A stretch of 64,000 nt of DNA from Pararhizobium qamdonense (GTDB lineage: Bacteria > Pseudomonadota > Alphaproteobacteria > Rhizobiales > Rhizobiaceae): assembly GCF_029277445.1 (NCBI RefSeq), contig NZ_CP119568.1:391501-455500 (forward strand), given 5' to 3'. A program made the translations under genes and the position numbers. Below the pieces are notes generated by a model. It was not told where the DNA came from. It did not search any database and saw nothing but the letters and a program-made list of their open reading frames with translations. Below are positions 4,198 through 51,079 of the stretch, one piece after another. Each line of letters starts with the position of its first letter. The stretch's first letter is position 1.

Positions 4198-4222
4198 AAC
4201 CCGCTGGCGGATCCAATGTTCC
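4198..4222 (-). promoter_or_regulatory. EcfG/RpoE2-type promoter for DUF892 copy 1
   Basis: Read on the minus strand: GGAAC (4222-4218), exactly 17 bases, then GTT (4200-4198). The gap to the start codon at 4145 leaves a leader of about 45 bases. Confidence 0.7.
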
Positions 4223-4431
4223 GTCATATCATCCCACCATCCGCCATACTTGCAGCACCTGCTTGTTTCGCCAATGCCGCCCTTTATCGACAGTGAGGGG
4301 AGTCCGCTTTGTCCTGGCCAAACGATACTGCGGAAACGTTCTGGTTCCTGCGCTTGGATCCCGGCATGGAAACGGCTCGACACGCCCTTGAGATTGTCGA
4401 GCCGTACCTGCTTTGCATTATTCAAAGTACG

Positions 4432-5439
4432 TTAGGGCTGCACAGGTTTTTGTTCGGAAACCCCCTGTTTAAAAGCATCGACCTCGTCAACAACACGGTC
4501 CTTGATAGTGTCATGGGTGTCAGACGCTACTTCCACGACCCTTTCGTACACTTCTGACGCAACCTCTTTTCCACGGTCCACCACATCCTGAGAGGCTGCC
4601 GTGACTTTCTCCATGGCGGTGTCGGAGGCATCCCCCACCAACTCATCCTCAAGGTCGGTGTGCGGCAGTGCCGCACCTATTGCAGCTCCTACCGCGAAGG
4701 CTAGGGCACCCCCGACCAGGGGCTGATCACGAAAATGCGTCAGGATGGCATCGTTCAGCTTGTTGGTTTGTCCACGCAGCGAGCTGGCTGTCGACGAGGT
4801 TTGGTCCGACAGTGAACTGGCCGCACCCGAAGCCGCAGCCCCAAGGTTGCTCGCCGCGCCCTTTGCCTGTTCCCATTTTTCCGCGACCCAGCCAGATGCG
4901 GCATCCAACATAGCACCAGTCTCGTCAGCGATTTGGTCGATTTGCCTGCCACTGGCGTCGGCAAACCCTCGATACGTCGCGCCCGCTTCGTCCACGAAAT
5001 GACCGGCACGGCGACCCGTCTCGTCGGTTAGCGCTTTGAGTTTCCGTCCCGAGCTGTCGGAGAAGTGACTATAACTTGACCCGTTCTCGCTTTGTGGTGG
5101 GGCCAGACGGCGAACCGGGCCGTCAGCCCGATAGAGTGGGTATTCTGTTGCGTTGTGCGAAGCGGTAGTTGCCGTGGAGGGCGTTGAGCCCTTTGCCATC
5201 AGCCAGGCGAGGCTCACGCCCATCAACGCAACAGGAAGCGGATTGTTCTTGAGCGCCTGCCCGAGGTTACTGACATATTCGCCACCACCGCTGCCTTTCG
5301 CATAGGTCAGGACCTCATCAATCAACTGTCCCGGCGACATCCGCTCCTGGATAGCGTCGATGCGACTTCCGATACGCTCACGATCCTGATCAATCTCTCT
5401 CTGGATGTCAGCTGACGTTTTCTCGTTTGAACTTTCCAT
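4432..5439 (-). CDS. DUF3618 protein (nutrient-deprivation-induced type)
   Basis: 335 residues. The N-terminus (about 8-45) fits DUF3618: a charged helix IQREIDQDRERIGSRIDAI followed by SPGQLIDEVL. A short hydrophobic segment NPLPVALMGVSLAWLMA comes next, then a long Ala/Ser/Thr/Gln-rich low-complexity helix region, a second glycine-alanine hydrophobic segment around 255-275, and an acidic tail. Rhizobial homologues are often annotated as nutrient-deprivation-induced proteins. It is the last gene of a three-gene operon; its ATG overlaps the upstream stop codon by one base (TGATG). A decayed paralogue fragment lies at about 39840-40050. Likely an envelope-associated stress protein; no enzymatic motif is visible. 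Confidence 0.8.
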   Translation of the reverse strand: MESSNEKTSADIQREIDQDRERIGSRIDAIQERMSPGQLIDEVLTYAKGSGGGEYVSNLGQALKNNPLPVALMGVSLAWLMAKGSTPSTATTASHNATEYPLYRADGPVRRLAPPQSENGSSYSHFSDSSGRKLKALTDETGRRAGHFVDEAGATYRGFADASGRQIDQIADETGAMLDAASGWVAEKWEQAKGAASNLGAAASGAASSLSDQTSSTASSLRGQTNKLNDAILTHFRDQPLVGGALAFAVGAAIGAALPHTDLEDELVGDASDTAMEKVTAASQDVVDRGKEVASEVYERVVEVASDTHDTIKDRVVDEVDAFKQGVSEQKPVQP

Positions 5440-5855
5440 CAGATTTTCTCCTTCACGGCATCGACATCACGGCGGAGCGACGTCGCGGTTCGATTGAGGG
5501 TCATATTAGTTCCACGAAGAGCCGCCAAGCCGCGAGACACGAATGCCCAAGAGATCACGGCGATGACAACTCCGACGATCAGGGAAGCCAATGCGCTGGC
5601 GCCTGTATCGGTGAAACCCTGCGTCACGAGAAATGCCGCGAGACCGCCGACAAGGGCGCCCAGCAGCACGCCAACCGCACCGATGGCCAAGACGAGCCCT
5701 ATGATAAGGATCTCCACGCTGCTCAATGCCTTGGAAAGTTTTTCGGAAGCCTCGGTTTTAGCGAGATCGATTTCCTTGCGGAAGAGACTTGTCACGTCAC
5801 TGACAAGCCCGCCGAGTAGCTCAGACAGGGGAGCATTATCTGGAGACTTAGCCAT
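5439..5855 (-). CDS. Phage holin family (holin superfamily III / DUF1469) membrane protein
   Basis: 138 residues counted from MAKSPDN at 5855, chosen because GGGGGCAGG lies just upstream. An amphipathic N-terminal helix (LLGGLVSDVTSLFRKEIDLA) is followed by two strong transmembrane segments (about 55-80 and 88-112) and a charged C-terminal helix. This is the architecture of the putative holin-X/DUF1469 family, which in non-phage settings accompanies DUF3618 genes. It overlaps its upstream neighbour by 8 bases and its downstream neighbour by one, so the three are almost certainly translationally coupled. No phage genes are nearby, so lysis is unlikely. Confidence 0.8.
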   Translation of the reverse strand: MAKSPDNAPLSELLGGLVSDVTSLFRKEIDLAKTEASEKLSKALSSVEILIIGLVLAIGAVGVLLGALVGGLAAFLVTQGFTDTGASALASLIVGVVIAVISWAFVSRGLAALRGTNMTLNRTATSLRRDVDAVKEKI

Positions 5856-6411
5856 TATCCTGCCCCCCATCTCTGCTGGAATCGAAGGTTGTCGCGGGAG
5901 AATTGGCAATCTTGGACGGTGTTCTTTTTGCCGACGCGGTGAGGAAACGACTAGCGGTCAGTCCCGCGAGCGCGGCGATGCCCAAGAAGGCCAGCGGCTG
6001 CTTGCGACCGAACTCCTCCGCCATGTTGGCGATCTCACCGACATCTTTGCCTTCCATTTGCTTGGCAAAGCTTTGAACGCTCAGCCCGATCTGTTTCGCA
6101 TAGCGACCGACCTCCGTCTGGTCAGATCCCTCCAGTTCAGTGCCCACCTTCTGAAGCGCGGTCGCGACGCCGCCGACCTGTCGCGCGGCGTAAGTTGCCT
6201 GTTCCGAGACCACGCCCTTCATTTTCTCAACAGCGCTATCCGCGCCCGTCTTGATGGTGTCCTTGGCCGCCGACATATCTTCGCTGACCTTTTCCTTCAG
6301 ATCGGCGAACGACGCCGGGCTTTCGGACGCGGGAATTTCAGGTTGGGATGAGGGTAATGTTGTTGGCACAACATCTGATCCCATCGCCGGATCGTCAAAC
6401 TCGTTTGGCAT
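5848..6411 (-). CDS. Hypothetical first gene of the DUF3618 operon
   Basis: 187 residues from ATG 6411, with GAGG seven bases upstream. It has a disordered acidic N-terminus, then a long heptad-patterned helix (about 45-120) with Lys/Glu/Ala-rich composition, a hydrophobic segment PLAFLGIAALAGLTASRFL near 150-170, and a basic tail. The layout resembles membrane-anchored LEA-like or DUF883-like stress proteins, but I cannot assign a family. It is transcribed first from the EcfG-type promoter at 6457-6481 and overlaps the holin-like gene by 8 bases. Confidence 0.75.
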   Translation of the reverse strand: MPNEFDDPAMGSDVVPTTLPSSQPEIPASESPASFADLKEKVSEDMSAAKDTIKTGADSAVEKMKGVVSEQATYAARQVGGVATALQKVGTELEGSDQTEVGRYAKQIGLSVQSFAKQMEGKDVGEIANMAEEFGRKQPLAFLGIAALAGLTASRFLTASAKRTPSKIANSPATTFDSSRDGGQDNG

Positions 6412-6456: not shown

Positions 6457-6481
6457 AACCATGATTTGTGAGCTTTGTTCC
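6457..6481 (-). promoter_or_regulatory. EcfG/RpoE2-type promoter for the DUF3618 operon
   Basis: On the minus strand, GGAAC (6481-6477), 17 bases, GTT (6459-6457). About 45 bases separate it from the start at 6411. It lies just outside the left breakpoint (6520) of the long direct repeat. Confidence 0.7.
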
Positions 6482-13011: not shown

Positions 13012-13665
13012 CTATTTAATCGTCTGCCCGGTGCTCTTCCAATCTGCGACAAAGCTTTTGAGCCCCTTGTCCGTCAATGGGTGCTTAACGAGGGCCTTTA
13101 AGGTCGCTGCAGGTACCGTTACGACGTCTGCGCCCACAAGCGCCGCCTCACGTACATGATTACCAGTTCGGATGGACGCCGCCAAAATCTGGGTCTCGAA
13201 GGAATAATTGTCATAGATGCGACGGATATCGGCAATGAGGTCCATGCCGTTAATGTTGGTATCATCAAGACGACCGACGAACGGCGAGATATAAGTAGCG
13301 CTAGCTTTGGCCGCAAGTATTGCCTGGTTGGCAGAAAAGCAGAGAGTGACATTCGTTTTCAAACCCTGCTCCGTAAACCGCTTGCAAGCCTTTAGGCCGG
13401 GGAGTGTCAGAGGGAGCTTGATGACAATATTGGGAGCGATGTCGGAAAGAATTTTCCCCTCTCGCATCATGTCGTCCAACTCCAGGGATGCGACCTCTCC
13501 GGAAACCGGCCCGTCGGTCACCTCACAAATTTCCTCCAGTAGCTCTTTGATTGGACGGTCCGCTTTGAGCACCAGAGATGGATTGGTTGTGACCCCATCA
13601 ATCAAGCCCGCTTCCTGGAGTTCACGGATCTCGCCAATATTGCCGGTATCGACGAAAAATTTCAT
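13012..13665 (-). CDS. tal: Transaldolase / fructose-6-phosphate aldolase-like
   Basis: 217 residues from ATG 13665 (MKFFVDTGN), the canonical start of the short TalC-type transaldolases. The Schiff-base lysine is in NIVIKLPLT (about residue 83), preceded by GVTTNPSLV and followed by [12 protein letters not shown] and the phosphate-binding [10 protein letters not shown]. It transfers dihydroxyacetone units in the non-oxidative pentose phosphate pathway. The extra upstream 23 codons of the open frame look spurious. An EcfG-type promoter with 16-base spacing lies at 13734-13757, so this copy is probably a stress-induced paralogue rather than the housekeeping enzyme. Confidence 0.93.
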
Positions 13666-13733: not shown

Positions 13734-13757
13734 AACAGTGAGCAGCCGGTTAGTTCC
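13734..13757 (-). promoter_or_regulatory. EcfG/RpoE2-type promoter for transaldolase
   Basis: On the minus strand, GGAAC (13757-13753), 16 bases, GTT (13736-13734). It lies about 70 bases before the start and is divergent from the promoter at 13776-13800. Confidence 0.62.
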
Positions 13758-13775: not shown

Positions 13776-13800
13776 GGAACAATGCTGATCCAATCAAGTT
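13776..13800 (+). promoter_or_regulatory. EcfG/RpoE2-type promoter for DUF982 gene
   Basis: GGAAC (13776-13780), 17 bases, GTT (13798-13800), about 37 bases before the proposed TTG start at 13838. It forms a divergent pair with the transaldolase promoter. Confidence 0.68.
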
Positions 13801-13837
13801 ATGCTGCATTGCACAAATTCCATTGCGGGGTTTTAGG

Positions 13838-14083: not shown

Positions 14084-14108
14084 GGAACTTAAGTGCTGAG
14101 CCGTGGTT
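14084..14108 (+). promoter_or_regulatory. EcfG/RpoE2-type promoter for DUF4142 gene
   Basis: GGAAC (14084-14088), 17 bases, GTT (14106-14108), leaving about 20 bases to the ATG at 14129. It starts directly after the DUF982 stop codon. Confidence 0.7.
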
Positions 14109-14128: not shown

Positions 14129-14641
14129 ATGAACCAGATTTTTTCCAAATTGACCGTCACGGCCATAATAGCAATGGATATAACTATTCTTCCAGGGATA
14201 TCCCTCGCTCACGGGGATACCCCAGCCCCTCAAGGTTTTGCCGAAAAAGCAGCTATTTCACACACGTTTGAGATCGAAGCCGCAAAGTTGGTTCTTGACC
14301 GTGGGAAAGACCCGGCCGCCAAGAGTTTCGCAGCCGATATGATTTCGGACCATGAACAGGCAGGAGTAGGCTGGCAAACGCTGCAGGCGAAGAGCATGTG
14401 CAGCTTCCAGCGGGCCTCGACGACGAACACCGTGGAAAGTGAAGCGCTGAAGTCTTCTTCCGATCAGGATTTCGATCGGGCCTATCTTTCAACTCAGATA
14501 TCTGCTCACGAAGAAGCGGTCAGTCTGTTTGAACATTATGCCAAAAACAGCTCTGGCGGCCCGCTAAAAAGCCTTGCTGAAAAAACGCTGGGCACGTTAC
14601 GCACCCACACTGTACGAATCCATGGGTTGACCAAGGAATAG
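14129..14641 (+). CDS. DUF4142 periplasmic stress protein, copy 1
   Basis: 170 residues from ATG 14129. A signal peptide (basic start, hydrophobic core TVTAIIAMDITILPGI, cleavage near ISLAHG) is followed by the helical DUF4142 domain, related to the ferritin-like fold, with FEIEAAKLVLDRGKDP, a His-containing DHEQ turn and ISAHEEAVSLFEHYA. The family is common among stress-induced exported proteins. A second copy at 19202-19699 is frameshifted. The EcfG promoter lies just upstream. Confidence 0.85.
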   Translation: MNQIFSKLTVTAIIAMDITILPGISLAHGDTPAPQGFAEKAAISHTFEIEAAKLVLDRGKDPAAKSFAADMISDHEQAGVGWQTLQAKSMCSFQRASTTNTVESEALKSSSDQDFDRAYLSTQISAHEEAVSLFEHYAKNSSGGPLKSLAEKTLGTLRTHTVRIHGLTKE

Positions 14642-20309: not shown

Positions 20310-20334
20310 GGAACATCTGCTGGCTCACTCAGTT
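20310..20334 (+). promoter_or_regulatory. EcfG/RpoE2-type promoter for alcohol dehydrogenase
   Basis: GGAAC (20310-20314), 17 bases, GTT (20332-20334), 28 bases before ATG 20363. Confidence 0.7.
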
Positions 20335-20362: not shown

Positions 20363-21532
20363 ATGCGCGCACTTTGCTGGCACGGAAAAGGTGACGTTCG
20401 CGTCGATACAGTTCCCGATCCCAAAATCCAACATTCGCGAGATGCCATTATCAAAATAACTTGCTGCGCCATCTGCGGGTCTGACCTGCATCTTCTGGAC
20501 GGCTATCAGCCAACGATGGAAAGTGGCGATATCCTTGGCCATGAAAACATGGGCGAAGTTATTGAGTTGGGTTCAGACGTCAAGAACCTCAAAATCGGCG
20601 ACCGCGTGGTTGTCCCCTTTACGATTAGCTGTGGCGATTGCTGGTTTTGCAAACAGGGAATGTATTCCTGCTGCGATACGACAAACCCCAATGCCGAGAT
20701 TGCACGTAAGGCCATGGGCCACTCCCCAGCCGGACTGTTCGGGTTTAGCCATATGCTTGGGGGATACAGCGGCGGTCAGGCAGAATACCTCCGCGTCCCC
20801 ATGGCCGATGTCGGGCCGATCAAGGTGCCTGACAGCGTCTCGGATGAGCAGGCGCTTTTCCTATCCGATATTTTTCCCACAGGGTACATGGCCGCTGAAA
20901 ATGCGCAGATCCAACCCGGAGACACGGTGGCCATCTGGGGATGTGGCCCGGTCGGTCAGTTCGCAATTCGCTCCGCGCTCATGATGGGCGCAGGCCGCGT
21001 GATCGCAATAGATGAAGTGGCTGAACGTCTCGCGATGGCGGAAGCGGGGGGAGCCGAAACGATTAACTTCTCCGAGACCGACGTCTATGACGAACTCATG
21101 TCACGCACCGCCAACCGGGGCCCTGACAGTTGCATCGACGCGGTCGGATGCGAGGCATCAGGCCACGGCTCCGCTGATGCGTTACTCGATAGGGCTAAGG
21201 CAGCGCTGTATCTCGCCACCGATCGAGTCCATGTGCTGCGGGAAGCCATTATGAGCTGCCGTAAAGGCGGCACGATATCTATTCCGGGCGTTTATGTCGG
21301 AATGGGCGATAAAATTCCCATCGGCGCTGCAATGAACAAAGGGCTTACCCTGAAGATGGGACAGACCCATGTGCAGAAATATACAAAACCACTTCTTGAG
21401 AAAATCGAAGCGGGAGAGATCGATCCGAGCTTTGTAGTGACACATCCAGCGTCTTTGGAAGACGCTCCGGAGATGTACAAAAAATTCCGGGATAAGGAGG
21501 ATGGGGTGATCAAGGTCGTGCTCAGGCCATAG
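20363..21532 (+). CDS. Zinc-dependent alcohol dehydrogenase (formaldehyde-dehydrogenase-like MDR)
   Basis: 389 residues from ATG 20363, with GGAGG upstream. Catalytic zinc residues lie in CAICGSDLH and GHENMGEV. The structural zinc loop has several Cys ([16 protein letters not shown]). The Rossmann fold has [12 protein letters not shown], and the adenine-ribose acidic residue follows in VIAIDEV. The length and the insertion [10 protein letters not shown] resemble the glutathione-independent formaldehyde dehydrogenase branch of the medium-chain family. Probably an NAD(P)-dependent alcohol or aldehyde enzyme used under stress, given its EcfG promoter. The substrate is not determinable. Confidence 0.9.
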
Positions 21533-21876: not shown

Positions 21877-21901
21877 GGAACCATAGATCAACCCGCTGGT
21901 T
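21877..21901 (+). promoter_or_regulatory. EcfG/RpoE2-type promoter for Mn-catalase
   Basis: GGAAC (21877-21881), 17 bases, GTT (21899-21901), about 30 bases before ATG 21933. Confidence 0.72.
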
Positions 21902-21932: not shown

Positions 21933-22859
21933 ATGTTCATGAGAGTCGACCAGTTGCAGGCCAACCTGCCAGCTCCAGCACGTGCAGATCCCAACGCCGC
22001 CGCAGCCCTTCAGGAATTGCTCGGTGGCAAGTATGGCGAAATGTCCACTCTGGGCAATTACATGTTTCAGAGCTTCAACTTCCGCAGCAAGGAAAAGCTC
22101 AAGCCGTTTTATAGCCTGGTGGCGAGCATCACAGCCGAAGAACTCGGCCACGTCGAACTCGTTAGCAATGGCGTGGCGATGCTTAACAACGGACCTGACG
22201 TCCCAGATGGTGACGAAGGCGATGGCGGAGACATTTCCGGCGCGCCGTGGGAGGGCATGAAAGACATCCGTCTTGCGGCCGCTTTCCTGTCCGGTGCGGG
22301 CGGCGCGATGCCCGTCAACAGCAACGGTGTCTCCTGGAACAACGATTTCATCACGACGACGGGCAATGTCGTCATCGATTTGCTCCACAACTTCCACCTG
22401 GAATGCGGGGCGCGTCTCCACAAGCTCCGGGTCTATGAAACGCTTTCCGATCCGACGGGCCGCGAAGTCTGCGGCTATCTGCTAGTTCGCGGGTCTGTTC
22501 ACGCTCACGCTTACGCTCTGGCACTTGAAAAGATCACCGGCGTCGACGTCAAGAAATTCCTGCCGACGCCGAACATTCCCCTCGACAAGATTCCTGAATG
22601 CCAAAAATATCTCGACGAGGGATCGCATCGCAGGCTCTACACGTTCAGCCCGGGCGACTACAAGGAAATGTCCGGCATCTGGGGCAACGGCGAGGTCGCA
22701 CTCCCAACCGATCCGCCAGGTGAGCTCGAAGTCGTAGACGGAATGCCCGAAGGCGGCAAAATCCATCAGCTGGTTGGCGTACCGTCAGCCTTCACGCCAG
22801 ACTACGCGCCAGAGGAAATGTTCGAGATTGCCGAGAAGCTTTACAAAGCTTCTCGATAA
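21933..22859 (+). CDS. Manganese catalase
   Basis: 308 residues from ATG 21933. The dimanganese four-helix bundle ligands are recognisable: Glu in GGKYGEMSTLGNY, the ExxH pair in ITAEELGHVELV, Glu in NFHLECGARLHKL and His in GSVHAHAYAL. It dismutates hydrogen peroxide to water and oxygen without heme. The C-terminal part wraps around the hexamer in known structures. It has its own EcfG-type promoter and is followed by a strong hairpin terminator, so it is a single-gene unit. Confidence 0.95.
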   Translation: MFMRVDQLQANLPAPARADPNAAAALQELLGGKYGEMSTLGNYMFQSFNFRSKEKLKPFYSLVASITAEELGHVELVSNGVAMLNNGPDVPDGDEGDGGDISGAPWEGMKDIRLAAAFLSGAGGAMPVNSNGVSWNNDFITTTGNVVIDLLHNFHLECGARLHKLRVYETLSDPTGREVCGYLLVRGSVHAHAYALALEKITGVDVKKFLPTPNIPLDKIPECQKYLDEGSHRRLYTFSPGDYKEMSGIWGNGEVALPTDPPGELEVVDGMPEGGKIHQLVGVPSAFTPDYAPEEMFEIAEKLYKASR

Positions 22860-28486: not shown

Positions 28487-30268
28487 ATGGCAAGGTTCGA
28501 CTTCGGGCCGGTCACAACAGAAAACACAACCGTTTTTAGGCTGTGGGCACCACTTCAGGAGCAGGTAACTTTGCGCATCGTGGACCGCGGTGACCTTGTT
28601 ATGAACCGGCGCTACGAAGGATGGCATATCGTACAGGTGTCAGATGCGGGACCGGGCACACAGTACGGCTTCGTCCTGGCCGACGGCCTCGTCGTTCCGG
28701 ATCCGGGGTCTCGCCATCAGCCTGACGACGTTCATGGCCCGAGCGAACTGGCCGATCTCCATTATCAGTGGAAATGTACCCAGTGGTATGGTCGTCCATG
28801 GGAAGAAACGGTCATCTATGAATTGCACGTAGGTACGTTTACGCAGGAGGGGACCTTCCTCTCCGCGATCGATCGTCTCGACCATCTCAGGGATCTCGGC
28901 GTCACGGCGATCCAGATAATGCCCATCAGCGATTTTCCTGGCCGCTTGAACTGGGGCTACGACGGCGTTTTACCCTACGCTCCCGACAGCGCGTACGGCC
29001 GACCGGAAGATCTGCAGCAGCTGATCGACGAGGCGCACCTGCGCGGCATCTGTGTTTTCCTGGACGTGGTCTATAATCACTTCGGTCCAGATGGAAACTA
29101 CATGCCTTCCTATGCGCCGCTGTTCACGAACAAGCATCGGACACCGTGGGGCAATGGGCTCAACTTTGACGGAGAGCAATCGAAATGGGTGCGTGAATTC
29201 ATCGTCCAGAACGCAGAATACTGGATTCGAGAGTTCAAGATGGATGGCTTACGGCTCGATGCGGTACACGCGATCGACGATGACAGCGCGCGGCACATTC
29301 TTCATGAGATCGCAGATCGCGCGAGGGCAGCAGCGCCCGAACGGCACATTCATCTGATTGTGGAAAATGAGGACAACGACGCGACGCTGCTCGAAAGAAA
29401 CGACGATGGACGCCCCTTCCTCTATACGGCGCAGTGGAACGACGACATTCATCACGTGCTGCACGTTGATGGTACCGGGGAGACCTTTGGGTACTACAAG
29501 GACTACGCAAAGGACGACCCTGCCAAACTGGGCAAGGCTTTGGCCGAGGGTTTTGTCTTCCAGGGGCAGCACATGAATTACCGGGGGAAAGAGAGGGGCA
29601 CGCCGAGTGCCGATTTGCCCCCGACGGCATTTATTTCCTTTATTCAGAACCACGACCAGATTGGCAACCGCGCAGAGGGGGACAGGGTCGTCGCCGCTCA
29701 GTCTCGCGAAAGGCTTAAAGCGCTCGCCGCGGTCTACTTGCTTGCGCCTCAGATCCCGATGATCTTCATGGGAGAGGAGTGGGGTGCTCGCGCACCATTT
29801 CCGTATTTTTGCGACTTTGCTCCTGAGCTGAACGAAAAGGTTCGGCAAGGAAGGCGAGAGGAGCTTTCGCGGCTGCCGTGTTTCGACGGCGATGACGCAC
29901 TGGATCCGACGGATGAAGCCACCTTCCGCAATGCCAAATTGAACTGGGAAGAAACCAGCGGTGTGAACGAGTACCTGGAATTGTACCGCGACTTGCTATC
30001 GATAAGGCGGAAATCGATTGTTCCGTTGCTAGCCCATGGTGCGGGTCGACAGGCATCCTATCAGACGGTTGGCCATGCGATCGCGGTAAGCTGGCGGTTC
30101 CGAGACAACATACTGCACCTTCTTGCTAACCTCTCTTCCACTCCGGTGACGAATTCAGTAGGGGAGCAGGGAGTTGCTCTTTTTAACCAAGGCGAAGTTG
30201 ATCGTGAGCAGATCGGAGCTTGGAGCGTCCGCTGGAGCATTGAGGAACACAAAGCACCTGGGGGCTGA
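28487..30268 (+). CDS. treZ: Malto-oligosyltrehalose trehalohydrolase
   Basis: 593 residues from ATG 28487, with GGAGG six bases upstream (ATG 28448 lacks one and lies on the promoter). An N-terminal beta-sandwich E-set domain (about 1-95) precedes the GH13 barrel. Catalytic regions: LDVVYNHFGPDGNY, GLRLDAVHAIDD (nucleophile Asp), LIVENEDND (acid Glu) and FIQNHDQIGNR (transition-state Asp). It releases trehalose from maltooligosyl-trehalose made by TreY. The short C-terminal beta domain ends in a hydrophilic tail. Confidence 0.95.
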   Translation: MARFDFGPVTTENTTVFRLWAPLQEQVTLRIVDRGDLVMNRRYEGWHIVQVSDAGPGTQYGFVLADGLVVPDPGSRHQPDDVHGPSELADLHYQWKCTQWYGRPWEETVIYELHVGTFTQEGTFLSAIDRLDHLRDLGVTAIQIMPISDFPGRLNWGYDGVLPYAPDSAYGRPEDLQQLIDEAHLRGICVFLDVVYNHFGPDGNYMPSYAPLFTNKHRTPWGNGLNFDGEQSKWVREFIVQNAEYWIREFKMDGLRLDAVHAIDDDSARHILHEIADRARAAAPERHIHLIVENEDNDATLLERNDDGRPFLYTAQWNDDIHHVLHVDGTGETFGYYKDYAKDDPAKLGKALAEGFVFQGQHMNYRGKERGTPSADLPPTAFISFIQNHDQIGNRAEGDRVVAAQSRERLKALAAVYLLAPQIPMIFMGEEWGARAPFPYFCDFAPELNEKVRQGRREELSRLPCFDGDDALDPTDEATFRNAKLNWEETSGVNEYLELYRDLLSIRRKSIVPLLAHGAGRQASYQTVGHAIAVSWRFRDNILHLLANLSSTPVTNSVGEQGVALFNQGEVDREQIGAWSVRWSIEEHKAPGG

Positions 30269-31473: not shown

Positions 31474-31498
31474 AACTGAGTCATTTGATTTTTGTTCC
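31474..31498 (-). promoter_or_regulatory. EcfG/RpoE2-type promoter for DUF982 pair
   Basis: On the minus strand, GGAAC (31498-31494), 17 bases, GTT (31476-31474), 41 bases before the start at 31433. It overlaps the truncated 3' end of the glgA remnant. Confidence 0.68.
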
Positions 31499-33355: not shown

Positions 33356-33380
33356 AACGACCCAAACCAAGAGAGGTTCC
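33356..33380 (-). promoter_or_regulatory. EcfG/RpoE2-type promoter for SDR
   Basis: On the minus strand, GGAAC (33380-33376), 17 bases, GTT (33358-33356), 30 bases before the start at 33326. Confidence 0.72.
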
Positions 33381-33771
33381 CCGGCGTTCGCACACGCGCA
33401 AATCATTCGACACGCCATTACAATGGCAAGCCTCGTCCATAATTGGGCGATGCCGTCACCTTAAAGATTTCAAATTTCAATGTACCAGTGTTCATCTAAG
33501 TTTCACTCGCCGGTTCGTATCCCTTCGAGAACACTGATATGTGACGGCACGGCGCGGAGAAATTTTCCTCCACCGCGCGTGCCAGAGTTTCGAATTCAGA
33601 TTAAGCCAATGATATAACGGGCCTCAATTTACTTTATGTTCCGATCCCGGATCTTAAGACGGAAGCACCGGATGTCGCTGGAACTATCTGCTACAACTCG
33701 GGTTTATTGGCGCGGCGGATCAGCCGACGCCTATTGGGGCTTTCTCTCAGGCGAGATAGTTGGAGATTGCG
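33381..33771. other. Intergenic between SDR and Mfd-like helicase
   Basis: No gene seen. No EcfG-type motif precedes the Mfd-like gene. Confidence 0.4.
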
Positions 33772-36700
33772 TTGCGTGTCATTGAGTACACAAGTTCGGT
33801 CGATGCCGATGATGTAAACCCAGTCCTCCGACCTACTGCAGCACAGACAGCAGCCGCACTCATCGACCTAATTGTGCATTCGAACAGATCTCGCGGATAT
33901 GTTTCATTGAGTGAAAACGGCGCCACTAAGGTTGCCGCCGCTGTTCGCTGTCTCGATCCCGAACTCGAAATCGTGGTTCTTCCCCCCTGGGATTGCCTTC
34001 CTTACGACCGCGTGCCTCCATCCAGGCAAGCAATGGGACGGCGCATGGACGCGCTTAGAGTCTGGTTACAGCCATCCGAAAACCCCAGGCTATTTATCAC
34101 TTCATTAGATTCTGTGCTTCAGCGCGTTCCACCCATGCCCTTCATACAGAACAGCTCGTTCAAGCTTGCAGCCGGAGGCGCTTTCGATCGGGACTCGTTT
34201 GAACGTTTCGTCCGCCAAACTGGATATCTAGAAGACGGCATTGTCGATGAACCCGGCGAACTTGTATTCCGGGATGATGTGATCGACATTTTCCCTGCAG
34301 GCGCATCGAAACCTATGCGTATCGCTCTCACAGAAGATTCGAAAGTGGCCGAACTTCGGTGGTATGATCCCATCACGCAAAGAACCACGAGCACTGTCGA
34401 GGAAATGGTCTTCGGCCCGGCGACGGAAGCGATTTCCCGAGACGATCACCTCAATAGCCAAGATCCACAGCCCGAAGTTTCGGAGCAGAACCTTCTTCAG
34501 CTTTACGGAAAATTGCAGTCAGTCTTTGAAATATTGGGTAAAGTTGACATCGCCTTTGAAGACGGGGCTGACGAGCGGTTAAGCAGCTACCTCGATATTA
34601 TCGAGGACGCCCGCCAAGCGCGCCAGCGTTTTGGTGGCGAGGCCGTTGAACGAGTGCACTCACTTTATCTTGGGCCGTCCGAATGGGCTGATGCGTTGGA
34701 AGCCATTGCTAGGATAGAACTTGATCTGGGACAGGCGCGCTCGCTTCCAAGGTTTGCTGACGCTTCAAATCCCCATAGAGCGTTGATCGATTTTGTGAAA
34801 TCAGAAAAGCGAGCGGGCCGCTCCTTTGTTTTCGCCGGGGGCGGCCAAACGTTTGACGGTATCAAGCGCCGGCTAGAACGTGAGACAGAGACCATTTTTA
34901 GGCGGATCAGCACCTGGAGAGATGTCCAGGTTGCCGAACCCGGTGCACTGTTGGTGCTGGATTGCCCTTTGGCTAATGGTTTCGCATCAGGCACTCTCAA
35001 CGTCGTTACCGTGAAGGACGTCCTTGGTGCCCTCGCCGGGACCACAGATAGCGTGGCACGGCTTACGGAGCCCCAACTGCGGCTGGGAGATGTTGTCGTA
35101 CATGAAGAGCATGGAATTGGCATCTTCAAGTCCTTGGAAAGCGTCACAGTCGACGGGATCACGCGAGACGCTGCCCGGCTCGAATATCGCGGCGGCGCCT
35201 CACTTCTCATACCGATCGACGAGTTTGGAAAACTTTGGCGGTATGGATCAGAGCCGGACGCCGTGACTCTCGACCGGTTACATACTGAAGCATGGTCTAA
35301 GAGACGGGCTGTTATTGACAAGCACATTCGCGCTGTCGGCCGGCACCTATTGAAACTTGCGAAGAAGCGGCAGGAGGAGAAGGCGGAGCTATTCGTGCCG
35401 CCTCGGGGAGACTATAGCAAATTCGTTCGCCGCTTTCCGTATACGGAGACAGTTGATCAAGCTGCGGCGATCGAAGCCGTTCTTAAGGATTTGGCCTCCG
35501 GGACCATCATGAGCCGGTTGATTTGCGGTGATGTTGGATTCGGAAAAACAGAAATTGCGCTACGTGCTGCAGCGGCAGTGGCACTGGCCAGCGGCCAGGT
35601 CGTCATCATTGCACCGACCACAGTGCTCGTCCGACAGCATTTTACCACATTCGAGCGCCGGTTCGCTGGTACTGGAATCCAGGTGGCAATGTTGTCCCGA
35701 GTAGTTGAGCCGAAAAAAGCCGAGCAGGTGAAAGCAGGCATCGCTGATGGTGAAATCGGAATCATTGTCGCAACGCAAGCAATACTGGCCAAAGATATTT
35801 CCTTCAGACATCTCGGGCTTTTGATTGTCGACGAGGAACACCGGTTCGGGACACAAGAAAAGCAGACAATGAAGGAGATGGCACCGCTATTGCACACGCT
35901 CACCATGTCAGCGACGCCGATCCCCCGGACATTGCAGGCTGCGATGATTGGTGTTCAGGATGTCAGCATTCTTGCGACGCCTCCTTCCAAACGCCGGCCA
36001 GTCCGGACAACCCTCAGCACGGCTGATCGCGCCTCGATGCGGGTCACCCTGATGCGGGAATATCGCCGAGGCGGTCAGAGTTTTCTCGTCGTTCCACAAA
36101 TTGCGGACATTGGGCCGGTCGAGGAGATGCTGGGTGAGATCGCTCCGGAACTTTCTATACGTGTTGCTCATGGCAAGATGAAAGCCGAGTTAATGGATGA
36201 GGTAATGGTCGGGTTTGCCAATGGCGTTGGCGATGTCCTTCTGTCCACGAACATCATCGAGAGCGGTCTCGACGTTCCACGGGCGAACACGATCTTCATC
36301 TGGCGCGCCGATAGATTCGGGTTGGCGCAACTGCATCAACTCCGCGGACGTGTCGGGAGAGGTAAGGCCCAAGGAATGGCGTATTTTCTTACGGCGAATA
36401 ATGACGACATTTCCGAGCAAACAAGACTGCGGCTATCGACCATGGTGGAAAACGATCGTCTTGGCGCGGGGTTGGCGATCAGCATGCAAGATCTTGACCT
36501 TCGCGGAGCTGGAGACATTGCTGGTTCCGACCAAGCAGGCCACATGAAGTTGATCGGCGTTAGTCTGTATCAAAAGCTGTTAGAACGGGCGATGAATGCA
36601 GCAAGGAAAGAAACAGTGATTACCGCGAGGCCGGTTGTTCTCAATCTCGGCATCGCCGGAGTAATCCCGCCCGACTATGTGGCGGATGGGGAAGTGAGGC

Positions 36701-37044
36701 TCAATCTTTACGCTAGACTGCTCCGAGCCTCGCAAACTAGCGAGGTAGATGGATTTGCGGAGGAGTTCGAGGATCGTTTCGGTGAACTACCTGAGGAGGT
36801 ATCTATTCTGTTTCGCCTGACCAAGCTGCGGATTGGCGCGAACGGATTTCATATGGGCAAGCTTGACGGAGGACCGCTGGCGATGGCGATAAGCTTTGTC
36901 CAACGGCCCACTCAGAAGATGTTCAAGTTGCTAACGCGGTCACATCCGGCAGTGCTTCGGGAAGGCCGTCTGATTTACACACTGAAAACGAACAGTAGTC
37001 TGGAAAGGATAGCTTTTTTCGAGCAGCTGTTTGAAGGCATCTGA
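33772..37044 (+). CDS. Mfd-like transcription-repair coupling helicase (paralogue)
   Basis: About 1090 residues. TTG 33772 is preferred (GGAG six bases upstream); TTG 33760 is an alternative. Domain order follows Mfd: UvrB-like N-terminal module (about 10-330), RNA polymerase-interacting CarD/TRCF domain (LRLGDVVVHEEHGIGIFKSL, about 440-530), DEAD translocase with GDVGFGKTEIAL (Walker A) and LLIVDEEHRFG (DEEH box), helicase C with NIIESGLDVPRANT and QLRGRVGRGK, then the TRCF C-terminal domain. Canonical Mfd displaces stalled RNA polymerase and recruits UvrA. Start codon, accessory context and divergence from memory of chromosomal Mfd suggest a second copy. Confidence 0.85.
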   Translation: MRVIEYTSSVDADDVNPVLRPTAAQTAAALIDLIVHSNRSRGYVSLSENGATKVAAAVRCLDPELEIVVLPPWDCLPYDRVPPSRQAMGRRMDALRVWLQPSENPRLFITSLDSVLQRVPPMPFIQNSSFKLAAGGAFDRDSFERFVRQTGYLEDGIVDEPGELVFRDDVIDIFPAGASKPMRIALTEDSKVAELRWYDPITQRTTSTVEEMVFGPATEAISRDDHLNSQDPQPEVSEQNLLQLYGKLQSVFEILGKVDIAFEDGADERLSSYLDIIEDARQARQRFGGEAVERVHSLYLGPSEWADALEAIARIELDLGQARSLPRFADASNPHRALIDFVKSEKRAGRSFVFAGGGQTFDGIKRRLERETETIFRRISTWRDVQVAEPGALLVLDCPLANGFASGTLNVVTVKDVLGALAGTTDSVARLTEPQLRLGDVVVHEEHGIGIFKSLESVTVDGITRDAARLEYRGGASLLIPIDEFGKLWRYGSEPDAVTLDRLHTEAWSKRRAVIDKHIRAVGRHLLKLAKKRQEEKAELFVPPRGDYSKFVRRFPYTETVDQAAAIEAVLKDLASGTIMSRLICGDVGFGKTEIALRAAAAVALASGQVVIIAPTTVLVRQHFTTFERRFAGTGIQVAMLSRVVEPKKAEQVKAGIADGEIGIIVATQAILAKDISFRHLGLLIVDEEHRFGTQEKQTMKEMAPLLHTLTMSATPIPRTLQAAMIGVQDVSILATPPSKRRPVRTTLSTADRASMRVTLMREYRRGGQSFLVVPQIADIGPVEEMLGEIAPELSIRVAHGKMKAELMDEVMVGFANGVGDVLLSTNIIESGLDVPRANTIFIWRADRFGLAQLHQLRGRVGRGKAQGMAYFLTANNDDISEQTRLRLSTMVENDRLGAGLAISMQDLDLRGAGDIAGSDQAGHMKLIGVSLYQKLLERAMNAARKETVITARPVVLNLGIAGVIPPDYVADGEVRLNLYARLLRASQTSEVDGFAEEFEDRFGELPEEVSILFRLTKLRIGANGFHMGKLDGGPLAMAISFVQRPTQKMFKLLTRSHPAVLREGRLIYTLKTNSSLERIAFFEQLFEGI

Positions 37045-37355: not shown

Positions 37356-37415
37356 TAATCTCATATTGAACTAAAGACTTTTCTCCGCGTTGTGTCGCAC
37401 ACAGCGAGGAGCGCA

Positions 37416-39703: not shown

Positions 39704-39728
39704 AACCACGCTTGCGTAAAATTGTTCC
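39704..39728 (-). promoter_or_regulatory. EcfG/RpoE2-type promoter for DUF892 copy 2
   Basis: On the minus strand, GGAAC (39728-39724), 17 bases, GTT (39706-39704), 40 bases before ATG 39664. Confidence 0.73.
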
Positions 39729-39732
39729 CCTC

Positions 39733-40050: not shown

Positions 40051-40075
40051 GGAACCATTTCCGATAAGACCGGTT
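40051..40075 (+). promoter_or_regulatory. EcfG/RpoE2-type promoter for phosphatase operon
   Basis: GGAAC (40051-40055), 17 bases, GTT (40073-40075), about 80 bases before ATG 40154. Confidence 0.65.
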
Positions 40076-40153: not shown

Positions 40154-40915
40154 ATGAAACAGAATTGGCCGAAACAAATCTGGATTGTTCGTCATGGTGA
40201 AAGTGCCGGGAATGTTGCCCGCGACGCCGCAGATTTTGCTGGACATGCACACATCGATATCACCGAACGGGATGTCGACGTACCGCTGAGTACGCTTGGC
40301 CAACAACAATCTGACGCGCTAGCAGCATGGTTCGGCGGCTTAAAGATATCAGAACAACCAGATGTTATATTGGCATCACCCTATAAACGGGCACTGCGGA
40401 CCGCCGAAACCATCGCCCAACAGCTTTCAGAGCCGCCAAAGTTCGCCGTGATTCTGGACGAGCGGCTGCGGGAGAAGGAGTTCGGCATCCTCGATCGATT
40501 GACACGTCGTGGGATCGAAGAGCTTCATCCAGATCAGGCTGAGCTTCGGCGGATCATGGGAAAATTCTATCACAGGCCGCCGGCGGGCGAGAGTTGGTGC
40601 GATGTGATTCTTCGACTACGAAGTATGCTCGATACGATCAGCTTGCACTACGCCGATCAACGCGTCTTGATCGTCGCTCATCAGGTGGTCGTTTTGTGCA
40701 TGCGTTATATCATTGAGAATCTGTCTGAAGAGCAAATTCTGGAGATTGATCGGCAAGGCGACGTGTCGAATTGCGGGGTTACCGAATATGTCGCTGAAAC
40801 TCGCAAGGAAGTCGGGGGGAGCCTGATCTTGAGGCGCTACAATTTCGTGGCACCGCTGATCGAGGCTGGAGCGCCGTTAACGGCTGAAACAGACGCTAAC
40901 GTGGCTGCCCGATGA
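40154..40915 (+). CDS. Histidine phosphatase family protein
   Basis: 253 residues. The phosphohistidine motif is IVRHGESAGN (His about 14); other family sites are LSTLGQQQSDAL, SPYKRALRTAETIA (Arg), the acid-base Glu region DERLREKEFGILD and VAHQVVVLCM (second His). It is a 2,3-bisphosphoglycerate mutase-like phosphatase; the substrate is unknown. ATGA overlap with the following NAD(P)HX dehydratase gene suggests a coupled function, perhaps nucleotide or metabolite repair. Confidence 0.88.
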   Translation: MKQNWPKQIWIVRHGESAGNVARDAADFAGHAHIDITERDVDVPLSTLGQQQSDALAAWFGGLKISEQPDVILASPYKRALRTAETIAQQLSEPPKFAVILDERLREKEFGILDRLTRRGIEELHPDQAELRRIMGKFYHRPPAGESWCDVILRLRSMLDTISLHYADQRVLIVAHQVVVLCMRYIIENLSEEQILEIDRQGDVSNCGVTEYVAETRKEVGGSLILRRYNFVAPLIEAGAPLTAETDANVAAR

Positions 40916-41799
40916 TGAACTTTCAAATTATCGACTCCAACATGCTCGCGTCCCTTCCGCTGCCGCAACCAGCGGAAGGAAGCAAGGAAGAGCGCGGTCG
41001 GGTCTGCATTATCGGTGGAAGCACAGAAGTGCCGGGAGCTGTCCTTTTGGCTGCCCTGGGCGCAATGCGCGCCGGGGCTGGAAAACTTCAGATCTTCTCC
41101 GCAGAAAGCCGGGCCGGAGCGCTCGCAGTTGCTATGCCTGAAGCGTTGGTCATCAGCCTGGCAGAAACGCCAAATGGGGGTCTCCAGTGTGCGCCCTTTC
41201 AGTCCAGCGCTTCCAGGTGGGCCGACGCGAATGCGCTGCTTGTGGGCCCTGGAATGGTAGAGGAGCCTGATTGTCACGAGATACTGAAATGTCTGCTTGA
41301 AACTGCCAACGCAGCCAACATCGTCGTAGATGCCGGGGCTCTTCCCCGAATCACCGAACTCGGCGACAGTCTGTGCAAAAGGGTGGGGCGCATCATCATC
41401 ACCCCGCATGCCGGAGAGATGGCGAACCTGCTAAGTGTAGACAAAGAGGTCGTTGAAGCCGATCCCGCCTCAGCTGCTTTACGATTGACGCAAGAGTTTG
41501 GATTGGTGGTTGTGATGAAAGGTAGCCAGACCATCGTCACTGCACCGGACGGGAACTGGCGTTACACGGGCGGTGGCGTCGGGCTGGCCACGTCTGGCTC
41601 AGGCGATGTCCTTGCTGGCATTATTGCAGGATTATTAGCGCGCGGTACCAAACCTGCGGCTGCGGCCATATGGGGCGTTTTCCTTCATGGCGAAGCAGGC
41701 TCAAAGCTCGCCAAGTCGGTTGCCCCGCTTGGATTCTTGGCTCGTGAGATTCCCGCCCTGATACCCCAGCTTATGATCGATGCTTCGTTCAAAAGGTAA
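40912..41799 (+). CDS. ADP-dependent (S)-NAD(P)H-hydrate dehydratase (carbohydrate-kinase-like)
   Basis: 295 residues; corresponds to the C-terminal domain of Nnr (YjeF_C, CARKD). It dehydrates the damaged hydrate NADHX/NADPHX back to NAD(P)H. Motifs: RGRVCIIGGSTEVPGAVLLAA (start of the ribokinase-like fold), ITPHAGEMANLL, VVMKGSQTIVTAP and the anion hole GLATSGSGDVLAGIIAGLL with the catalytic Asp. The epimerase domain that Nnr usually carries at its N-terminus is absent, so a separate epimerase must come from elsewhere. Cotranscribed with the phosphatase. Confidence 0.9.
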   Translation: MMNFQIIDSNMLASLPLPQPAEGSKEERGRVCIIGGSTEVPGAVLLAALGAMRAGAGKLQIFSAESRAGALAVAMPEALVISLAETPNGGLQCAPFQSSASRWADANALLVGPGMVEEPDCHEILKCLLETANAANIVVDAGALPRITELGDSLCKRVGRIIITPHAGEMANLLSVDKEVVEADPASAALRLTQEFGLVVVMKGSQTIVTAPDGNWRYTGGGVGLATSGSGDVLAGIIAGLLARGTKPAAAAIWGVFLHGEAGSKLAKSVAPLGFLAREIPALIPQLMIDASFKR

Positions 41800-42782: not shown

Positions 42783-42807
42783 GGAACGATTTGGGCAAGA
42801 GGGGGTT
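42783..42807 (+). promoter_or_regulatory. EcfG/RpoE2-type promoter for EamA exporter
   Basis: GGAAC (42783-42787), 17 bases, GTT (42805-42807), about 45 bases before ATG 42853. Its -10 end abuts the inverted repeat at 42807-42838. Confidence 0.6.
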
Positions 42808-42838: not shown

Positions 42839-42852
42839 GAGATTGGACTGCC

Positions 42853-45206: not shown

Positions 45207-45231
45207 GGAACTTCTGCCCTCCTGACTGGTT
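45207..45231 (+). promoter_or_regulatory. EcfG/RpoE2-type promoter for disordered protein
   Basis: GGAAC (45207-45211), 17 bases, GTT (45229-45231), 25 bases before ATG 45257. Confidence 0.72.
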
Positions 45232-47343: not shown

Positions 47344-47368
47344 AACTTGAACGGCGCATGTTTGTTCC
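47344..47368 (-). promoter_or_regulatory. EcfG/RpoE2-type promoter for DUF6894 copy 2
   Basis: On the minus strand, GGAAC (47368-47364), 17 bases, GTT (47346-47344), about 90 bases before ATG 47252. Confidence 0.58.
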
Positions 47369-49312: not shown

Positions 49313-50134
49313 TTACCCGCTTTTGCGGGATTTCAGCTCCTTTGCAACCGACTTCTTCAATGCGTCCATAATGTTCACAATGTTGCTCTTTTCCTCGTCA
49401 TCATTCTTCGTGGATTTCGCAGTCATGGCCTTCGACGGCTTTTTGGATTTCTTCTTATCGGCTATCAGCTTCAGCAAGCTTTCCTGGATCGGGTCGGACG
49501 CCATTTCCGGCGACCAGTCCTTCAGCCGTTTTTTAATCACTGCCTCAAGTGCGGAAACGCCTTTGGGATCTGACTTTTTATCTATGCCTGTGAAATATTC
49601 GCTTTCCGGCCGCACTTCATCTCCGAAGCGAAGGGTCCAGACGACGATGCCTTCGCCGCGCGCCTCCAGCACGACAGCCCGTTCCCGACGACTGAGGACA
49701 ACGCGAGATATGCCGACGACATCCTCCGACGCCATAGCTTGCCGTATGACCGCGAAAGCTTCGTCGCCGATTTTGTCGTTTGCGGTGAGGTAGTATGGAG
49801 TTTCGAGATAGACCCACTCGATGCTTCCACGCGGAACGAACTTTTCGATGTCAATTGTCCGGACCGTCTCCAATTCGACGGAGTCCAGATCCTCGTCGGT
49901 CAGGAGCACATAATCGTTCTCACCGCGCTCGTAGCCCTTTGCTTCGTGTTCATCATCGACGGGCTTGCCGGTCAGGCTATCCACGTACTGGGAGACCACC
50001 CGGTTCCCGGTATCTTTGTTCAGCGTATGAAAGCGGACTTTTTCGGAGTCAGAAGTGGCTGGGGTCATTACCACAGGGCAGGTGACGAGCGAGAGCTTGA
50101 GGTAGCCTCTCCAATATGGGCGGCGCGGTGCCAT
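49313..50134 (-). CDS. Ku protein, non-homologous end joining (second gene of pair)
   Basis: 273 residues. Bacterial Ku core: RPYWRGYLKLSLVTCPVVM at the start, the beta-barrel ring region with VEWVYLETPYYLTAND-like residues, and a Lys/Ser-rich C-terminal extension (about 225-273). Ku homo- or heterodimers encircle broken DNA ends and recruit LigD. It starts three bases after the upstream Ku gene, so the two are cotranscribed. In Sinorhizobium meliloti a comparable Ku3-Ku4 pair acts together and is under stress sigma factor control. Confidence 0.95.
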   Translation of the reverse strand: MAPRRPYWRGYLKLSLVTCPVVMTPATSDSEKVRFHTLNKDTGNRVVSQYVDSLTGKPVDDEHEAKGYERGENDYVLLTDEDLDSVELETVRTIDIEKFVPRGSIEWVYLETPYYLTANDKIGDEAFAVIRQAMASEDVVGISRVVLSRRERAVVLEARGEGIVVWTLRFGDEVRPESEYFTGIDKKSDPKGVSALEAVIKKRLKDWSPEMASDPIQESLLKLIADKKKSKKPSKAMTAKSTKNDDEEKSNIVNIMDALKKSVAKELKSRKSG

Positions 50135-50137
50135 CGA

Positions 50138-51025
50138 TCAGCTCGCCTTCTTTTGTGCGGGTTTCGCCCGGCTTTTGGTGGATTTGGAAACTGTGGCCTT
50201 CTTGCCCGAATTGGCATTGGCGGCCTTCGGCTTGCTTGCCGCCGGCTTATCCATACCGGCGCTCTCGCGCAGAGCCTTGAGCAGGTCGTTCGGCTTGGAA
50301 ACCTTGATGGGCTTGGGCTTCGGCAGGGTCTTGCCCTCCGCCTTCGCCTTCACCAGCGCGGCGAGGGCATCCTCGTAGCGATCATCGAATTTCGCGGGGT
50401 CGAAGTCCCCCTTCTTGGTAGTGATAATGTGCTTGGCCAGATCGAGCATCTCCGCTTCGACCTTGACCTTGGCCACGTCTTTGAAGATTTCATCGGAAGA
50501 GCGGACTTCGTAATCGTAGTTGAGGGTCGTTGCGATCATGCCCTTGCCGTGCGCCCGGATGAGGACAGTTCGCATCCGGCGGAAAAGCACAGTGCGAGCA
50601 ATCGCCGTGGCACTGGTCCTGCTCAGGGCATCCCGGATGCTGGTAAAAGCATCGTGGTCGGCTTCGTCGACCGGTACCAAATAGTAGGGCTTATCGAAAT
50701 AGATGTCGTCGATCTTGCCGCAGGGGACGAATGCTTCGGCTTCCAACATTTTGTCAGAGTCTGGCACAACCGCTGCCACTTCATCGGGATCAATCATGAT
50801 GTAATCACCGTTGCCCGTCTCGAAGCCCTTCACCTGTTGGTCGCGTTCCACGACTTCCTCAGTCTCACTGTCGATGAACTCGCGCTTCAGGCGGTTTCCA
50901 GTGCTCTCGTTGATCATATGGAAGCTGATCCGCTCGGATGTCGAGGCTGCCGTGTAGAGGCCCACGGCACAACTGATTTCACCAATCTTCAGGTGACCTT
51001 TCCACTGAGCGCGATGTGCAGCCAT
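50138..51025 (-). CDS. Ku protein, non-homologous end joining (first gene of pair)
   Basis: 295 residues from MAAHRAQWKGHLKIGEISC (start 51025, AAGGGA upstream). The Ku ring core includes RISFHMINESTGNRLKREF and IYFDKPYYLVP. A long Lys/Ala/Ser-rich tail (about 235-295: KPKPIKVSKPNDLL, then AKPAQKKAS) probably binds DNA. It differs strongly from the second Ku, so the pair is likely a heterodimer. An EcfG-type promoter lies 30 bases upstream. Confidence 0.95.
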   Translation of the reverse strand: MAAHRAQWKGHLKIGEISCAVGLYTAASTSERISFHMINESTGNRLKREFIDSETEEVVERDQQVKGFETGNGDYIMIDPDEVAAVVPDSDKMLEAEAFVPCGKIDDIYFDKPYYLVPVDEADHDAFTSIRDALSRTSATAIARTVLFRRMRTVLIRAHGKGMIATTLNYDYEVRSSDEIFKDVAKVKVEAEMLDLAKHIITTKKGDFDPAKFDDRYEDALAALVKAKAEGKTLPKPKPIKVSKPNDLLKALRESAGMDKPAASKPKAANANSGKKATVSKSTKSRAKPAQKKAS

Positions 51026-51054
51026 TTCCGTCCCTTCCAGTCCGTTCCGGAGGA

Positions 51055-51079
51055 AACTCAACGCCGCCTAGTTAGTTCC
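51055..51079 (-). promoter_or_regulatory. EcfG/RpoE2-type promoter for the Ku operon
   Basis: On the minus strand, GGAAC (51079-51075), 17 bases, GTT (51057-51055), 30 bases before the start at 51025. Confidence 0.72.

Follow-up and report, generated by a model that had tools for sequence, protein, structure and literature searches.

A dense array of putative EcfG-type promoter sites in a 64-kb stretch of contig C3 of Pararhizobium qamdonense

Pararhizobium qamdonense belongs to the Rhizobiaceae within the Alphaproteobacteria and has a genome of 6.24 Mb spread over five contigs, here called C1 to C5. C1 is the main chromosome and C3 (NZ_CP119568.1), a contig of 615,005 bases, is probably a plasmid or chromid, to judge from this five-contig layout. 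The window, that is, the whole stretch of 64,000 nucleotides analysed here, corresponds to C3:391501-455500 and contains a dense array of sites, GGAAC and GTT separated by 17 bases, which resemble the promoters of the alphaproteobacterial general-stress sigma factor EcfG. The sites were searched on both strands as GGAAC-N16/17-GTT, their subclasses are named by the base before GTT (RGTT for a purine, CGTT for C), and gene families were assigned by Pfam and NCBIfam scans. All 17 motif coordinates given in a preliminary description of this DNA are exact matches (17/17), and one further site, 33680, ahead of an Mfd-like gene, had been missed there. The candidate EcfG-type sites that stand before genes, and the genes that follow them, are listed below in window coordinates.

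4198..4222, minus strand: site of the GGGTT type, 52 bases before a DUF892 gene
3657..4145, minus strand: DUF892 gene (Pfam PF05974)
6457..6481, minus strand: site, 45 bases before the gene at 5848-6411
4432..6411, minus strand: three-gene run, a putative operon (unknown gene 5848-6411, Phage_holin_3_6 gene 5439-5855, DUF3618 gene 4432-5439)
13734..13757, minus strand: N16 site, the least certain, 68 bases before a transaldolase/fructose-6-phosphate aldolase gene
13012..13665, minus strand: fructose-6-phosphate aldolase/transaldolase family gene (TIGR00875, above cut-off)
13776..13800, plus strand: site, about 22 bases before a DUF982 frame (13823-14077, TTG start uncertain)
14084..14108, plus strand: site, 20 bases before a DUF4142 gene (ATG at 14129)
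14129..14641, plus strand: DUF4142 gene (Pfam PF13628; scanned as 14093-14641)
20310..20334, plus strand: site, 28 bases before a zinc alcohol dehydrogenase gene
20363..21532, plus strand: zinc-dependent alcohol dehydrogenase family gene (Pfam PF08240/PF00107)
21877..21901, plus strand: GGTT site, 31 bases before a manganese catalase (Mn-catalase) gene
21933..22859, plus strand: Mn-catalase gene (Pfam PF05067)
28379..28403, minus strand: site, 32 bases before treY
25785..28346, minus strand: TreY, malto-oligosyltrehalose synthase (TIGR02401, above cut-off)
28422..28446, plus strand: site, 40 bases before treZ, divergent from the treY site
28487..30268, plus strand: TreZ, malto-oligosyltrehalose trehalohydrolase (TIGR02402, above cut-off)
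31474..31498, minus strand: site, 40 bases before a DUF982 frame (ATG at 31433)
33356..33380, minus strand: CGTT site, 29 bases before a short-chain dehydrogenase gene (32463-33326)
33680..33704, plus strand: site, about 55 bases before the Mfd-like gene
33760..37044, plus strand: second Mfd-like helicase (UvrB-interaction, RID, helicase and TRCF domains; 774 bits, just under the TIGR00580 cut-off of 800)
39704..39728, minus strand: site, 39 bases before a second DUF892 gene (39161-39664)
40051..40075, plus strand: site, 78 bases before a histidine-phosphatase gene
40154..41799, plus strand: histidine phosphatase family gene and NAD(P)H-hydrate dehydratase gene, a putative operon
42783..42807, plus strand: site, 45 bases before an EamA transporter gene (42853-43797)
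45207..45231, plus strand: site, 25 bases before an uncharacterised gene (from its ATG, 45257-45640)
47344..47368, minus strand: site, 91 bases before a DUF6894 gene (start at 47252)
51055..51079, minus strand: AGTT site, 29 bases before the first of two Ku genes
49313..51025, minus strand: two adjacent Ku genes, 50138-51025 and 49313-50134 (Pfam PF02735)

The window carries 25 sites, and the 18 listed (17 N17 and one N16) lie 20-91 bases ahead of a same-strand start codon. Twelve of these placements come from a home-made gene caller and six from starts read by eye (13734, 13776, 14084, 31474, 33680 and 45207), mostly of small genes which the caller had missed or shortened; a thirteenth placement by the caller, for site 45290, was rejected, as this site is inside a gene. 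If same-strand neighbours are co-transcribed, the 18 sites would serve about 22 genes, so that the "about twenty genes" of the preliminary description is roughly right. The DUF892 proteins we take to be of the YciF-like ferritin-fold family. The Mfd-like helicase is distinct from the chromosomal Mfd (C1:2755260), with which it shares 42% identity over 669 residues.

The excess of the motif over chance is large, as had been proposed: 25 matches in the window compare with 3.94 (standard deviation (sd) 2.11, largest 11) in 100 dinucleotide shuffles. A comparison of a scoring matrix with shuffled sequence, for which the preliminary description had called, was run and gave the same picture, since a matrix trained on the 51 intergenic N17 sites of C3 outside the window, all of them different sequences, found 24 hits with scores of at least 12 on both strands of the window versus 2.17 (sd 1.59, maximum 7) in 200 shuffles. 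The richest of ten 64-kb blocks of C3, with 27 matrix hits, is C3:384,001-448,000, the block which overlaps the window most. While GGAAC is present in every counted site by construction, the spacer was controlled by searching the same motif with other spacer lengths, 12 of them for counts and N10-16 plus N18-24 for position; the pattern read backward was unsuitable as a control because it exceeded the forward count in many genomes, and the other spacers were used instead. In the window N17 occurs 23 times, N16 twice and N18 not at all, and twelve other spacers average 2.0. A 17-base spacer agrees with that of EcfG-dependent promoters, in which 16-17 bases stand ahead of CGTT and 17-18 ahead of GTT. 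Over the whole of C3 the counts are 88 for N17, 11 for N16 and 18 for N18, and the mean of the 12 other spacers is 17.9. Enrichment on C3 is therefore confined to the 17-base spacer, and the rare 16-base spacer admitted earlier as part of the motif falls to the level of background, which leaves 13734 as the least certain of the 17 sites first described. In addition, 40 of the 88 N17 sites of C3 are in promoter position, defined as intergenic and 5-150 bases ahead of a called same-strand start, versus 0-5 for each of the 14 other spacers.

The array does not begin at 4198, as was first supposed, because the sites carry on leftwards past the window edge; inside the window it has only an end, near position 51 kb, where the sites of the window stop. 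The window covers the right-hand portion of a belt at C3:293-443 kb (about 150 kb) which holds 52 of the 88 N17 sites of C3, at a density of 22 per 64 kb versus a mean of 5.1 for other spacers over the same stretch, and the N17 density falls to 4.4 per 64 kb to the left of the belt and 6.0 to the right. Elsewhere in the genome, 12 N17 sites were counted in 200 kb of C4 (other spacers 7.5), 3 in 100 kb of C5 (2.8), 5 in five 20-kb samples of C2 (2.6) and 16 in C1:880-1020 kb (5.3), and the whole genome has 285 N17 versus 161 N14 matches. Among 16 genomes of the genus ranked by N17 minus N14, this genome (124) is second to G009 (139); its RGTT count, 147, is the highest (next 129), and its CGTT count, 95, is in the middle of the range (60-111). 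Full-length relatives of the Mfd-like helicase, with 52-55% identity, were found in 4 of 61 genomes besides this one (G005, G009, G012 and G033), and in G022 the gene is in pieces only. The four highest N17 excesses are those of the four of the 16 genomes that have a full-length Mfd-like orthologue, a coincidence noticed post hoc and not a test. Stretches of 100 kb around this gene in congeners contain 31 (G009), 17 (G005) and 18 (G012) N17 sites, far above other spacers, and 100 kb around the Mn-catalase gene of G015 shows no belt, its 6 N17 sites being equal to N13 (6); belts were thus seen in three of the four relatives' stretches examined. A site near the Mfd-like gene is present here and in one relative, G009.

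Several units of the belt exist in more than one copy together with their promoter sites. The 2,451-base segment at window 2326-4776, with its DUF892 gene and site, has an inverted copy of 99.8% identity at C3:350592-353042, 42 kb apart, in which the copy of site 4198 (C3:351146) is identical and inverted. The second DUF892 gene and its site have an 84.8% copy at C3:380326-381338 (site at C3:381237), and the alcohol dehydrogenase gene has an 88% copy on C1, the alignment running from one base before GGAAC to one base past the stop codon. Moreover, a 3.8-kb segment with four motif matches is common to C3:58.7-62.5 kb and C1 (94.8%), a second Mn-catalase gene on C3, at C3:62491 (96% amino acid identity), has its own site, and further relatives on C3 were found for Mn-catalase, Ku, LigD, short-chain dehydrogenase and DUF892.

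A rival reading is that the array was acquired horizontally, as a genomic island which is mobile as one block. The "stress-response island" of the preliminary description is only partly borne out. A direct repeat of about 619 bases, 97.6% identical (6520-7135 and 47579-48195), with an integrase-like fragment recognized by eye, brackets 41 kb of it. Furthermore, transposase genes lie at 7405-8618 with IS3-type matches in plasmids, the GC content of the window (~0.56) is lower than that of the contig (0.584), and Mn-catalase occurs in only 4 of 61 genomes searched. However, sites 4198, 6457 and 51055 are outside both repeats and the belt extends to about C3:293 kb, so that the array is a section of something larger; with either half of the window as query, coverage by any one plasmid record is at most 16%, the paralogues of the belt genes are mixed and scattered over the contig, and no evidence for movement as one unit was found. 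An island of this kind is therefore an unlikely explanation of the whole.

The regulators expected for such promoters are present in the genome, and C1 carries all of them: a single EcfG gene and two genes each for NepR and PhyR. At the first locus the genes are adjoining, EcfG at C1:1698843, NepR at C1:1698709 and a divergent PhyR at C1:1698102, with a site of its own 49 bases ahead of phyR, and NepR and PhyR genes are paired a second time at C1:3.80 Mb. Around this second pair, seven CGTT sites within 20 kb (C1:3790-3810 kb) form a chromosomal core cluster. The search with EcfG gave one match at 100% and a next best of at most 31% identity, and searches of the genome with EcfG, NepR and PhyR gave no match on C3, so the sigma factor would act on the belt in trans. 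HWE-type histidine kinases are described as feeding the general stress pathway in other bacteria (PMC12148442), and the window carries two genes of this type, at 11885-12898 and 37392-38456.

Conservation was followed at two genes. For Ku, 40 loci with a relative were compared, 25 closer (56-96% identity) and 15 more distant; 23 of the 25 closer loci have the motif at about -53 to -65, 13 with an exact N17 spacer and 10 with N18. Across the relatives' Ku loci N18 is in excess (38 versus 4-15 for most other spacers), and this is partly the Ku promoter itself, which in those 10 loci has an 18-base spacer. For Mn-catalase, 28 plasmid records were available, of which 21 were used (17 from Alphaproteobacteria and 4 from elsewhere) together with four whole-genome copies; seven records that were near-duplicates or from further congeners, and two partial pieces in G022, were left out. 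An exact site, always N17 and within -53 to -69, precedes 15 of the 21 alphaproteobacterial copies and none of the 4 from outside the Alphaproteobacteria (two of Deinococcus, one each of Rubrobacter and Cytobacillus). In these orthologous sites the spacer letters vary widely, and GGAAC, GTT and the distance between them are conserved.

Similar systems are known. In Rhizobium etli, whose EcfG/PhyR/NepR system (EcfG1, EcfG2) is of the same family with the same motif distance, the EcfG1 consensus is GGAAC-N16-CGTT (PMC3892343), which counts the spacer from one base earlier and so has the same spacing as GGAAC-N17-GTT. Its plasmid p42f has 14 N17 sites in 35 kb around ecfG2, 9 of them with a purine before GTT, versus 0-3 for each of eight other spacers, and these sites stand beside ferritin-like, DUF4142, Crp/Fnr and PAS genes. 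R. etli differs in having a second EcfG on the plasmid, and none was found here; the present belt is also larger than the p42f region, and its sites are mostly RGTT. The RpoE2 regulon of Sinorhizobium meliloti is like this one in its chromosomal sigma factor with two anti-sigma and two PhyR-type genes, and its targets are numerous, mainly without known function and spread over three replicons. In Sphingomonas melonis Fr1, the genes most activated by EcfG include Ku, malto-oligosyltrehalose trehalohydrolase, a glycosidase and a zinc alcohol dehydrogenase, families similar to those in the window, and the motif there is GGAAC-N17-20-GTT, unlike the almost strictly 17-base spacer of C3 (both from PMC6599016). 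In their families, the window genes resemble published EcfG regulons. No such belt was described in the titles and abstracts on Mn-catalase or Mfd with EcfG, on EcfG and genomic islands, or on plasmid-borne accessory regulons.

The base before GTT is a detail in which the "known consensus" of the preliminary description does not fit: GGAAC and the spacing agree with it, and the base before GTT is A or G in 20 of the 23 N17 sites of the window (G 10, A 10, C 2, T 1) instead of the published C, which also stands in the Sphingopyxis consensus (PMC7083833). The 73 intergenic N17 sites of C3 have A 28, G 27, T 9 and C 9, against C 76, T 46, A 40 and G 40 for other spacers on C3, and CGTT is a minority (13 of 88) among all its N17 sites; at both NepR/PhyR loci the base is C in 10 of 10 sites. 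In the 40 promoter-positioned C3 sites (A 12, G 17, C 8, T 3) the contrast between purine and C is weaker than in all sites, with P = 0.0002 (excess of purine) and P = 0.044 (shortage of C) against the other-spacer background, and P = 0.024 against 23 sampled chromosomal sites; sites duplicated along with their genes are not independent in these statistics. Samples of C1 (the first listed 30 of 70 CGTT and 30 of 64 RGTT sites) had 12 and 11, respectively, in promoter position. The contrast is not a clean split between replicons, the rest of the chromosome being mixed. Among orthologues, the 15 Mn-catalase sites are GGTT in 8, CGTT in 4 and TGTT in 3, with 7 of the 8 GGTT sites in Rhizobiaceae by label or kinship and one (G055) in another family of the order; the 23 Ku sites have A 15, T 3, C 3 and G 2. 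Four identical RGTT sites on C1 (649172, 1922526, 3211277 and 4212650), in two of which (L023, L201) the site is 37 bases before a called start, probably belong to a repeated element that carries a stress-type promoter of its own.

This bias raises the possibility that the belt is read not by EcfG but by another ECF sigma factor, whose promoters would have GGAAC at -35 and RGTT at -10. The excess of purines in the intergenic C3 sites (55 of 73, with C in 9) beside the uniform C of the PhyR/NepR loci is in its favour, and so are the nine purine sites of p42f together with the plasmid-borne EcfG2 of R. etli, for which 1 of 19 units repressed in the mutant has a CGTT-type motif (PMC3892343). On the other hand, EcfG2, with 43% identity to EcfG, would have shown up in the genome search, in which everything beyond the one EcfG was at 31% or less, and purine sites are in promoter position on the chromosome too (11 of 30 sampled). 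In addition, a natural GGTT promoter is active in vitro with the EcfG of Sphingopyxis, Sphingopyxis granuli has flexible -10 boxes, with CGTT the commonest (on C3 it is a minority) and GGTT among the next, and of the single-base changes described there, which do not include GGTT, those of CGTT to CATT or TGTT lowered transcription (PMC7083833); the EcfG-dependent genes of S. melonis include GGTT and AGTT sites (PMC6599016). Natural -10 boxes other than CGTT in Sphingopyxis and Sphingomonas mean that C is not a strict requirement, and recognition of RGTT by the EcfG of this organism is plausible by analogy, so that a separate sigma factor is very unlikely. Least likely of all, and largely refuted, is that base composition, repeats or the common origin of a few duplicated segments gave rise to the excess and that very few of the promoters work: some sites were indeed duplicated with their genes and are hence not all independent, and seven in the window are targetless, but the dinucleotide shuffles and the 12 other spacers take composition into account, no two of the 51 training sites outside the window have the same sequence, and the orthologue spacers diverge while GGAAC, the distance and GTT stay.

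Other features of the window are less clear. Two weak candidate sites are given here.

37367..37391, plus strand: TGAAC-N17-CGTT, score 9.4, near chance, 24 bases before the start (37416) of an HWE histidine kinase
25184..25208, minus strand: CGAAC-N17-AGTT, score 11.4, 45 bases before the ATG (25138) of a small unknown gene

No exact site was found ahead of the LigD gene (51607-54261). Between the site at 42783 and the EamA gene, within 42783-42853, an inverted repeat (GTAACGG...CCGTTAC) was seen by eye beside a divergent ABATE-family regulator gene, and it may be the operator of this regulator. The glycogen synthase-like gene at 31481-32395 matches only about the first 300 of the 477 positions of the GlgA model and looks truncated, and an N-terminal fragment of a UvrD-type helicase is found at 48180-48407.

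The best explanation, with a probability of about 0.87, is that the array is part of an alphaproteobacterial general-stress belt on a secondary replicon, which would be driven by the chromosomal EcfG. Stress-sensing HWE/HisKA2 kinases would lead to phosphorylation of PhyR, PhyR would bind NepR and thereby free EcfG, and EcfG-RNA polymerase would start transcription at GGAAC-N17-GTT, 20-91 bases before single genes and short operons. The predicted targets would serve the removal of hydrogen peroxide (Mn-catalase), trehalose synthesis (TreY/TreZ) and end joining (Ku), besides ferritin-like and other small proteins, and the belt would have grown by gain and duplication of genes with their promoters. 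The EcfG-type reading, already proposed in the preliminary description, appears well supported by comparisons of sequence, namely the exact spacing, the position, the gene content, the presence of EcfG, NepR and PhyR in the genome and the conservation in relatives.

A number of observations weigh against it. For seven of the 25 window sites (23023, 31104, 31106, 39733, 45209, 45290 and 48775) no target could be named, above the 2-4 or so expected by chance; 31104 and 31106 fall within DUF982 coding sequence, and the opposed overlapping pairs 31104/31106 and 45207/45209 are a product of the symmetry of GGAAC-N17-GTTCC. Most window sites depart from the consensus in having a base other than C ahead of GTT. 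Only 74% of C3 was called coding, so that "intergenic" is over-counted, an error which the other-spacer controls share. Furthermore, the Ku site is absent in 2 of the 25 closer loci (L100 and L101) and an exact site was found in only 2 of the 15 distant ones in an N16-17 scan which left out N18, 6 of the 21 alphaproteobacterial Mn-catalase copies, including both of Methylobacterium, have none, and no site lies within 500 bases of the Mfd-like gene in G012, G005 and G033.

The regulator, the motif and many of the targets are already known, and the array is ordinary in kind; what is worth following is its density, its extent beyond the window, its location on a putative secondary replicon under a chromosomal sigma factor and its purine bias. 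The reach of one chromosomal sigma factor over accessory DNA would be considerable, with 88 of 285 N17 sites on 615 kb of a 6.24-Mb genome, and a stress role becomes likely for the DUF892, DUF982, DUF3618, DUF4142 and DUF6894 families and for the second Mfd-like helicase. Moreover, GGTT, AGTT and CGTT promoters before orthologous genes are ready for comparison. We suggest, as a rather doubtful extension, that rhizobial secondary replicons carry a second tier of the general stress response, in which accessory cassettes of promoter plus gene, with RGTT in place of the CGTT of the chromosomal control loci, would respond more weakly or later to the same EcfG; the weaker output is a guess. If this were true, cargo could accumulate on the replicon while the core response is neither overwhelmed nor put out of time, and if the purine class is weaker or later, the -10 box would explain the grading of large regulons.

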